A DNA stretch of 64,000 nt from the NCBI RefSeq assembly GCF_020740795.1, contig NC_067285.1, positions 37,767,318 through 37,831,317 on the forward strand. The letters run 5' to 3'. Made by a program: the position numbers and the translations under genes. Positions 49,410 through 52,500 of this stretch are shown here, piece by piece (within the stretch, counting starts at the first letter, position 1; the number at the start of each line of letters is the position of its first letter). This stretch comes from Apus apus (Eukaryota; Chordata; Aves; Apodiformes; Apodidae). The notes under the pieces are model-generated. The model saw nothing but the letters and a program-made list of their open reading frames with translations, had not been told where the DNA came from and did no database searches.

Positions 49410-49554
49410 TCAGTCGCGGAGGGTGAAGTCGAAGGGCTGGAAGGCCTGGCGGAAGGCGCGGGCCTGCGCCGCCTCCTCCTCCCGGCCCGCCGCGCAGCGC
49501 CGCCAGTCCGCGCGCTCCGGCAGCCGCAGCAGCGCCGGGCTGGCCAGCACCGCC
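49410..49554 (-). CDS. CWF19L1: CWF19L1 last coding exon
   Basis: 145 nt, [20 protein letters not shown] to FDFTLRD and stop TGA. GC content is very high (Arg/Ala-rich compared with human). The acceptor TTGCAG|GGCGG lies inside the first unit of the adjoining minisatellite and has no pyrimidine tract. Confidence 0.9.
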
Positions 49555-52500
49555 CTGCAAGCACCGCCGCGTCACGCACCGCCCTGCACGCACCGCCCTG
49601 CAAGCACCGCCCGCGCCACGCACCGCCCGCGCCACGCACCGCCCTGCAAGCACCGCCCGCGCCACGCACCGCCCTGCACGCACCGCCCTGCAAGCACCGC
49701 CCTGCAAGCACCGCCCGCGCCACGCACCGCCCTGCAAGCACCGCCCGCGCCACGCACCGCCCGCGTCACGCACCGCCCTGCACGCACCGCCCTGCACGCA
49801 CCGCCCGCGCCACGCACCGCCCTGCAAGCACCGCCCTGCAAGCACCGCCCGCGCCACGCACCGCCCTGCACGCACCGCCCGCGTCACGCACCGCCCTGCA
49901 CGCACCGCCCGCGCCACGCACCGCCCGCGTCACGCACCGCCCTGCACGCACCGCCCGCGCCACGCACCGCCCTGCAAGCACCGCCCTGCAAGCACCGCCC
50001 GCGCCACGCACCGCCCTGCACGCACCGCCCGCGTCACGCACCGCCCTGCACGCACCGCCCGCGCCACGCACCGCCCGCGTCACGCACCGCCCTGCAAGCA
50101 CCGCCCTGCAAGCACCGCCCTGCAAGCACCGCCCGCGCCACGCACCGCCCTGCAAGCACCGCCCTGCACGCACCGCCCGCGCCACGCACCGCCCTGCAAG
50201 CACCGCCCTGCACGCACCGCCCGCGCCACGCACCGCCCTGCACGCACCGCCCGCGTCACGCACCGCCCTGCAAGCACCGCCCGGCACGCGCCGCCCGCGG
50301 CACCGGCGGGAGAGCGGGGAGGGGGTTACACGGGGGAGGGGCCCGACCTGCCGAACTGCAGCGGGAAGCGGCCGCGGATGCGGTGGAAAAGTTTCTGCCC
50401 CGTGTCCAGCTCCACGTAGAAGTAGGGTGTTCCCGACGGCACCACCTGCGGGGTGGGGGCGGTTAGGGGGACAACCCAGCACCCCCAGACCCTCCTGCCA
50501 GTTCTGCCTGCCTGCAGGAAGCCCGGTCTGATGTCTCCAAACCGGAGAGGTGTTTCTGTTGAGAGGGAAACTCCAGAAAACAAACCGACCAACGCGAAGA
50601 TGCCAAACTGTGTCTGGCTGTCAGACTTCTGCAGCCACCACTACAGAAATGAGCCAGCCAGGCTGTGCTGGTCACTCTCAGCCTGAGCCGAGTCTTCCCA
50701 TACCAAGAAAAGCACATGAAGAGACTGCATCATAGAATTATGGAATTGTCTGGGTTGGAAAAGACCTTTAAGACCATCCAGTCCAAGCACTAACCCCGCC
50801 CTGCCAAGGCCACCCCTGCCCCGTGTCCCTCAGCACCATCTCCAGGGCTTTGAAATTCCTCCAGGGATGGGGACTCCCCCCCTGCCCTGGGCAGCCTGGG
50901 CCAGGGCCTGACAACCCTCTCTGTGAATAAATTGTTCCTAGTATCCAATCTAAACCTCCCCTGGCAATTGAGGCCATTTCCTCTTGTCCGATCACATGTA
51001 ACTTGGGAGAAGAGACAAACATGCACATTTCTTGGCTGAGAAATCGGTCTCTGAGCTGACCAACACGGGTATCAAAAGCTGCAATGGCTTCCAGACAAGT
51101 GCACACATAACGCTATTTCTGGCTCCTGCTGCAGCTCAGGTCTCCCTGGGACCACTGAGCACGAACAAAAAACCAAACCCATGTCACTACTGACTCATTT
51201 CTCTAACAGAACAGGAAGACTCCTTTCAAATTTGAGTCAAAGGGAACCTAAAACTACCTGATGTGCAGAGACACTGAAAAGAGGGTTGGAATCTGGTATC
51301 CAGAAGGAATGAATTCAGCAAGCCTTACTGACACCTCTAAAGCTTTTGAGATAAGCAACACATCTGTTGCTCACAGGAACTTCACCCAGGGGAGAACATA
51401 TCTGGCATATTGCCAAATCAAGTCTACAAAGGTCTATCTCCAATAGCTTAAGCCTACCACACAGTGACCTCAGAGGGAAACAGCAGCCTGGAGGACAGAG
51501 GGAAAGTGACAGGTTTCATACTTGCGTGATGTCTGAGTGCTCTGGGATTTCTAATAATTCAATCTGCTGTTCCTGTGCCTGTGTGATAAAGGACTCTTTA
51601 ATGTCTTCAGAAGTACAGTGCTCCAACGGTACAGGAATCACCTTGAGAGGGATAACAATATTTCCATAAGAAGAAAAAAAAGACAAAACAAACCACTTGC
51701 AGAAAACAATCAGTCCATCACTGGAGCTGGTACACTCCTCAGTACCTCTCAGCATCATCAAACCAGAGAGGTGAGCACCTCTCTGTACAGGCTTAAACTT
51801 ATGAGATTTTTTTCTGTAGGAGACAGACAAAAAGCTGAAAACTAAAAGCTTGAAAAAGTTCTCAGCACAGCCATCTCCTTTCTGATTTCTGTGGTGGTTT
51901 AAGGCTGCTCTGACACAGTTACAGATCTGCCAAATACAGAAACCACCACAATAAACCCAACACACAGTAACACCAACAAAGAAATAATGAAAGATCTGGT
52001 CCTGGTGGGCAACAACCAGAGTTCTGCATCTATCCTTAGATGTTCAGCCTACTTCAGTGACAAATGTGAGCACAGTGGTTCATGTGCTATTGTGAGCCAG
52101 CAGAGGCAGAGCACAGTCTTGCAACTTCTCTGAAAACCTCACAGGCTTTTTACTGCTTCCACACGGGAAAACTTTTCCTCACCCACTCAACACAGCCCGT
52201 GCGCTGTGCTGCTGGAACAGGAAGAATTAAATGTGGCAGAACCAGCACCCTGGTTTTACTTTTGCTCTGGCTCTATCTGTGGGGTAAGATGACTTCTCTG
52301 CACGCTCTGGGAAGGCACAGAATAAAGAAATTTGCAGGTGAGCTTTCTCTCTCAGTTCCTTTGCATCATAAGTACAAGTTTACATTCTCCCAGGGTGCCA
52401 CTAAAACCGTACCTGTAACTGCAGATGCTGACTCCTATAGTTTCTTTCAAATAGGACGTATCTCTTTCCCTTGCTTCTGAAAAATTCCTTTAGGGCAGAT

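Follow-up and report, generated by a model that had tools for sequence, protein, structure and literature searches.

How does the spliceosome settle on a single 3′ splice site when copies of it fill the intron? The question is raised by the last intron of CWF19L1 in the swift Apus apus, on the minus strand of the 64,000-nucleotide stretch analysed here (the window; assembly GCF_020740795.1, contig NC_067285.1, 37,767,318 to 37,831,317), to which positions refer. A sequence-only reading of the window had named the gene, placed the acceptor of its last exon (TTGCAG/GGCGG at 49554/49555) in unit 1 of a 50-unit minisatellite filling the intron, counted 16 and 12 identical copies of two units and taken the correct AG to be the last. 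Exon joining and the C-termini of homologues confirm the gene, exon and acceptor. The array consists of 49 intact units and one degenerate unit, which occupy 92% of the 793-nt intron; both copy numbers are exact, and the correct AG is indeed the last, number 28, by frame and homology (Table 1).

Table 1 Features of the CWF19L1-CHUK junction in the window, with the evidence for each.
Feature	Position	Strand	Basis
Last CWF19L1 intron, 793 nt, 28 AGs	49555..50347	-	Exon joining, motif count
Penultimate CWF19L1 exon, donor CAG/GTCGGG	50348..50445	-	Exon joining
GTGTAAC (50331-50325) followed by a C-rich tract, 5′ end of the intron	50305..50331	-	Motif inspection; candidate branch site for AG 1 only
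Degenerate 50th unit GTGCCGGGCGGTGC, AG lost	50274..50287	-	Unit count
Array of 49 intact 14/15/16-bp units	49547..50273	-	Unit count; TRF
Unique 15-bp unit GTGACGCGGCGGTGC	49561..49575	-	Unit count; candidate branch adenosine 49572, 17 nt from the true AG
Unit 1 TTGCAGGGCGGTGC, carrying the authentic acceptor (AG 49556-49555)	49547..49560	-	Unit count, exon joining
Last CWF19L1 exon, coding part, ending in TGA	49410..49554	-	tblastn, exon joining, homologue C-termini; CwfJ_C_2 extends into the exon
Purine run GGGAGGAGGAGG in the last exon, 71 nt after the true AG	49472..49483	-	Motif inspection; putative exonic enhancer
AATAAA, presumed CWF19L1 poly(A) signal	49344..49349	-	No other AATAAA or ATTAAA at 48000-50500 on this strand
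Start of the CHUK (IKK-alpha) coding region, ATG at 49308; first 87 nt marked	49222..49308	-	PDB and tblastn matches
CpG island over CHUK exon 1, CWF19L1 last exon, array and penultimate exon	48750..50549	.	200-bp windows, GC>0.55, o/e>0.6

The array is detected by TRF as three overlapping rows with scores of 818-863. Its intact units, read on the minus strand, are 16 copies of TTGCAGGGCGGTGC, 12 of GTGCAGGGCGGTGC, 14 of GTGGCGCGGGCGGTGC, six of GTGACGCGGGCGGTGC and the single 15-mer GTGACGCGGCGGTGC. Abbreviated A, C, g, t and T, respectively, they follow each other in gene sense in the order AtCgCAgCAgAAAtgCtCgAAgCtgCtCgAAgCCtgAgAACgAggACTA. The motif [TG]TGCAGGGCGGTG occurs 28 times in 50347-49540, versus a mean of 0.006 and a maximum of 1 in 1000 dinucleotide shuffles of the intron. 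Unit 1 is composed of 6 nt of the intron and 8 nt of the conserved last exon, whose first 8 nt are thus part of the repeat.

Two copies of a ten-unit block, tgCtCgAAgC, stand side by side, and exact internal repeats reach a maximum of 166 bp; such a pattern would fit recent turnover by unequal exchange or slippage. Since array edges escape homogenisation, a degenerate unit at the distal end and an atypical 15-bp unit next to the acceptor are as may be expected. A 166-bp exact repeat would make the copy number unreliable if it came from short reads. The contig, however, is 115.5 Mb long in an assembly of 110 contigs for 1.10 Gb, the window is free of N, and the variant units are interleaved, not collapsed; the 201-bp flank 50300-50500 has a single match in the assembly. 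We therefore find it hardly credible that the array is misassembled or its copy number wrong.

The host gene was delineated by tblastn with a human CWF19L1 bait, followed by exon joining: 11 exons with GT-AG ends give a single open frame in the window. The N-terminal part continues beyond it in two further tblastn blocks (L002:2096-1998 and 1444-1361). A profile search finds both PF04677 (CwfJ_C_1) and PF04676 (CwfJ_C_2) above cut-off. The joined protein is identical to that of Chaetura pelagica (P0036) at 389 of 394 residues in ungapped columns, and it matches the human PDB chain 8ro2_L1 with an E value of 1e-231. Human entries 8ro2 and 9s2e, both containing a CWF19L1 chain, are presumably late, disassembling spliceosomes. 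CWF19L1 also interacts with DBR1, according to PMC10630875. That such an array sits in the gene for a spliceosome-linked factor is probably a coincidence.

The authentic acceptor joins AG/G in phase, and the junction AG/G GCG GTG CTG reads FGR-A-VLAS. Among the 120 homologues listed (958 lay above threshold), 105 fitted the motif used for counting C-termini and 15 did not; 90 of the 120 read FGR-E-VLAS. Alanine at the second residue of the last exon is found in eight of them (two ducks, three galliforms, a curlew, a manakin and one unnamed), as well as in the galah, so that conversion by the array is not supported as the origin of the Glu-to-Ala change. Trp, Ser or Cys occurs at the same residue in some homologues, where model errors may be responsible.

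Compared with each of four other birds, the last exon retains 36-38 identities over 46-48 aligned residues. Full-length CWF19L1 covers positions 4-96 of the 96-position CwfJ_C_2 profile at 66.5 bits, and the end of this domain is encoded by the last exon. Being conserved and part of CwfJ_C_2, the authentic last exon is presumably used. Several bird CWF19L1 models lack it (P0032, P0033, P0035, P0036, P0041, P0053 and others), perhaps because this GC-rich region is missing or hard to model. Searched alone, the exon retrieved nothing relevant from the PDB; a protein search with it (109 candidates) gave 13 clusters, with no swift or hummingbird among the matches listed.

All 28 intronic AGs sit in repeat units, 16 as TTGCAG and 12 as GTGCAG, such that 28 of the 49 intact units carry one; the first 78 nt of the intron have none. 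We joined the penultimate exon to each AG in turn, and only AG 28 gives the authentic C-terminus. The 27 upstream AGs divide into nine in phase and 18 that shift the frame. Every in-phase product stops at the TGA of a GTGAC unit, four of them in the 15-bp unit (TGA 49574-49572) and five in earlier ones, and 12 of the 18 frame-shifted products likewise end in GTGAC units of the array. AGs 20, 23 and 26 lead to the TAA within AATAAA at 49349. AGs 24, 25 and 27 meet no stop before 49000, and their messages would be non-stop if the AATAAA at 49349 is used.

The retained intron reads FGR-SGPSPV, then stops. The product of AG 1, the sole upstream product scanned, aligns with positions 4-56 of the 96 in CwfJ_C_2 at 23.0 bits, below the cut-off of 28.8; none of the other 26 holds the reading of the authentic exon. 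The sequence-only reading had predicted that upstream copies would shift the frame or add inserts rich in Ala, Gly, Arg and Cys. The former holds for 18 of the 27, but an insert followed by the authentic C-terminus results from none. Judged by the reading frames, mis-splicing would replace the C-terminus and put no insert into a full-length protein. Protein variety through in-frame repeat insertion was rejected, as no upstream AG reaches the authentic end. A search of public proteins for array-coded peptides scored 7992 candidates, of which eight passed, with no repeat peptide in their C-termini; the set comprises predicted proteins clustered at 90%, in which minor isoforms are rarely present. 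A further AG lies 15 nt inside the last exon (49539-49554); its use would remove AVLAS, five residues, in frame, and it too is within reach of the branch site considered below.

In the scanning model described in PMC1431707, the spliceosome takes as 3′ splice site the first AG that it meets beyond the branch point, but may skip AGs less than 12-15 nt away. The intron has only 37 adenosines; CGTGACG accounts for seven of them and GTGTAAC for two, the other 28 belonging to the AGs. We took as a candidate branch adenosine any non-AG adenosine in the exclusion zone plus 15 nt, leaving out the adenosines of upstream CAGs, which could in principle serve as alternative branch points. By this definition only eight of the 28 AGs have an adenosine within reach, seven of them in GTGAC and one in the TAAC pair. 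The GTGAC-to-AG distances are 18 nt for AGs 2, 11 and 16, 34 nt for AGs 10, 15 and 21, and 17 nt for AG 28. AG 1 is reached from the TAAC pair (50328-50325, +20 to +23 from the donor), whose adenosines lie at +21 and +22.

Nowhere but at the true AG does a TTGCAG unit come immediately after a GTGAC unit, and the unique 15-bp unit holds the only non-AG adenosine within reach of that AG. The intron had been credited with about 28 near-identical AGs and the choice among them called unclear. The AGs are exactly 28, similar and all in units, but they are not equally equipped; the verdict on their choice overlooks both the eight with an adenosine in reach and the GTGAC belonging to the true AG itself, a candidate determinant.

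The absence of a pyrimidine tract, also claimed, applies to the surroundings of the acceptor: the pyrimidine fraction at −20 to −5 is 0.50, versus 0.56-0.88 at the ten other CWF19L1 acceptors in the window. It does not apply to the 5′ end of the intron, where a C-rich tract accompanies TAAC. Seven of the 28 AGs share the value of 0.50, the remainder having 0.38-0.44. A yTnAy motif occurs in the last 45 nt before eight of the ten other acceptors (positions not filtered) and not at that of the last intron; GTGAC matches yUnAy at four of five positions.

The TAAC and its C-rich tract could themselves act as branch site and pyrimidine tract. AG 1 (50268) would then be taken, making the whole array exonic and replacing the C-terminus by a repetitive tail. 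The intron has no other TAAC and no other C-rich stretch of that length; AG 1 is the first AG after the AG-free 78 nt, 58-59 nt past the TAAC adenosines, and a short C-rich intron also seems implied in the galah by gene model P0015. These adenosines, however, are only 21-22 nt from the donor, whereas the shortest reported donor-branch distance that we found is 27 nt (HNRNPH1 intron 7, in the account of PMC8363638), and the product loses the reading frame of a last exon that is nevertheless conserved. We regard this course as unlikely.

From the observed anatomy, frames and homology we infer the following expansion history, branch point, enhancer role and AG choice, which on balance we consider probable. 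The minisatellite would have originated at the acceptor of this intron through local tandem duplication of a boundary-spanning unit, lengthening the intron from 66 nt to 793 nt (66 nt is what remains, by arithmetic, without 49561-50287). U2 would bind the GTGAC of the unique 15-bp unit, and the authentic AG would be the first downstream of this branch site, 17 nt away. Terminal-exon recognition, from the acceptor to the poly(A) signal and with the purine run 71 nt inside, would favour the most downstream acceptor, and the GGG triplets (50 in the intron, with no GGA or GAA) would help to mark the rest as intron. The last AG would thus be the one mainly used. Minority products from other GTGAC-AG pairs may be expected, and all would lose the C-terminal part of CwfJ_C_2.

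This preferred reading accords with the regular splicing of amphioxus globin and Adh3 despite boundary repeats, as reported in PMC3087553, and with the lack of repeat peptides in the eight C-termini that passed the protein search. Several points weigh against it. GTGAC deviates from yUnAy at one position and is not accompanied by a pyrimidine tract, and its distance of 17 nt to the AG comes close to the minimum. TAAC with its C-rich tract looks more like a classical branch site, but would select AG 1. Seven GTGAC-AG pairs compete, the adenosines of upstream CAGs could branch, and the AG inside the exon is reachable as well. Finally, the splice-site VNTR of ABCA7 does disturb splicing, according to PMC5954066.

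Looping out of the array by RNA structure finds no support: the predicted fold of 49540-50350 is less stable than those of all 20 shuffles (z +3.86). The galah CWF19L1 model (P0015) seems to read through the last intron; if so, that intron is C-rich and 72 nt long. On the strength of this one gene model, a very short intron may be supposed for birds at this point of the gene, with its acceptor as the source of the array.

With seven similar cassettes and the authentic end obtained from only one AG of 28, several GTGAC-AG pairs could instead be used in parallel, the length and composition of the array setting the fraction of full-length CWF19L1 as a splicing rheostat, harmful or regulatory. The mRNAs concerned have their stop in the last exon or none before 49000, and exon-junction-dependent decay would not be expected to remove them. 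ABCA7 offers a precedent, since the length of its VNTR is related to exon 19 skipping (PMC5954066). Against parallel use, terminal-exon definition and position favour the last cassette, and the amphioxus cases tested by RT-PCR splice regularly, as far as PMC3087553 describes them; we judge it rather unlikely.

Neither this precedent nor that of amphioxus had been considered in the sequence-only reading. The amphioxus ‘mirages’ (Adh3 and the globins BflGb6 and BflGb9, but also TnC and PGBD5) are minisatellite-like repeats across exon-intron boundaries; many of their units carry AG or GT signals, and RT-PCR suggests a regular mRNA (PMC3087553, PMC3902484). The CWF19L1 array has the same traits: a tandem unit of minisatellite size that spans an exon-intron boundary of its host, and a splice signal in many units. 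As in BflGb6, the repeat takes in the 3′ end of the intron and the 5′ part of the exon, and the 10-72 bp range of Adh3 units includes the size found here (PMC3087553). BflGb6, on the other hand, has 3-6 units of 150-160 bp in that description, versus about 50 of 14 or 16 bp in the bird (PMC3087553). The bird array also differs in filling an otherwise short intron and adjoining the next gene, and it is known from sequence alone, whereas regular splicing in amphioxus is backed by RT-PCR in the accounts cited.

The VNTR in intron 18 of human ABCA7 has 23.7 units of 25 bp in the reference; it begins with the donor GT of the exon itself as its first two bases and lies in a C-rich stretch (PMC5954066). 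Skipping of the exon that follows is correlated with VNTR length, exon 19 being skipped at 12-45% depending on the tissue, and retention of one unit is among the minor isoforms (PMC5954066). It resembles the CWF19L1 array as a vertebrate VNTR that includes a splice site (PMC5954066). There, however, the donor is repeated, here the acceptor, and a repeated donor of the ABCA7 type is absent from the swift array. Moreover, polymorphism, isoforms and disease association have been measured in ABCA7 (PMC5954066), whereas the CWF19L1 array is known from one assembly.

Two other systems are more distant. With SPF45/RBM17, U2AF can be dispensed with in the splicing of short introns whose pyrimidine tracts are truncated, and G-rich ultra-short introns with very weak sites are also spliced (both PMC8363638, PMC4463651). 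The CWF19L1 intron similarly has no tract beside its acceptor, but in those accounts the dependence on SPF45 stems from tract truncation and was studied in introns below about 100 nt, compared with 793 nt here. Internal tandem repeats in human segmental duplications include minisatellites of about 30 bp at exon-intron boundaries that may alter introns (PMC2812944); unlike the CWF19L1 boundary array, they lie in recent paralogues, half of them in coding sequence, according to the same source. A limited literature search found no published description of the CWF19L1 array; the match for CWF19L1 with minisatellite concerned human arteries, by its title and the start of its abstract. The array is the acceptor-side counterpart, in a bird, of the donor-side ABCA7 VNTR and of the amphioxus mirages: striking, not unprecedented. 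It amounts to a natural competition between 28 near-identical AGs, seven with the same GTGAC candidate, none with an adjacent pyrimidine tract and one giving the authentic end. Junction counts at this intron would bear on first-AG scanning, on exclusion-zone rules and on terminal-exon definition in a vertebrate.

Also missed had been the position of the array in a CpG island just upstream of CHUK. The CHUK ATG follows the CWF19L1 stop by 101 nt on the same strand, with the presumed CWF19L1 poly(A) signal in between, which puts the array, in the island, upstream of CHUK. With such spacing, a CHUK 5′ leader that is not very short must extend into CWF19L1. In exon 1, a stretch of 24 residues matches PDB 5ebz (E 9.8e-11), and a human bait locates further exons down to about 21100 (block E 5e-8), perhaps 18543 (E 0.011). 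A single VNTR is thus common to the splice site of one gene and the upstream region of the next.

The array could accordingly matter at the DNA level, as a promoter-proximal VNTR of CHUK with strong G-skew on the RNA, its splice-site content being incidental. It lies 239-979 bp upstream of the CHUK ATG, one CpG island covers both, the intron contains 49 GGGCGG (GC-box) cores, and the GC skew is −0.417 on the plus strand. A second GC-rich minisatellite directly upstream of the first CWF19L1 coding block (L002:2125-2642; 15-bp unit, 34.5 copies by TRF) suggests that CpG islands of this genome may carry such arrays not infrequently, and that one may be ordinary here. A homogenised repeat, however, multiplies any motif that it contains without selection, and we hold a role of this kind to be decidedly unlikely. 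More doubtful still is a combined function, in which one length-variable VNTR of branch-point/acceptor cassettes would both set the level of full-length CWF19L1 and tune the CHUK promoter, coupling a splicing factor to an NF-kB immune kinase. CWF19L1 might conceivably even feed back on the array in its own gene.

The CHUK N-terminus appears longer here than its human counterpart, with a 27-bp tandem duplication in this part (49236-49288); the MER start is retained.
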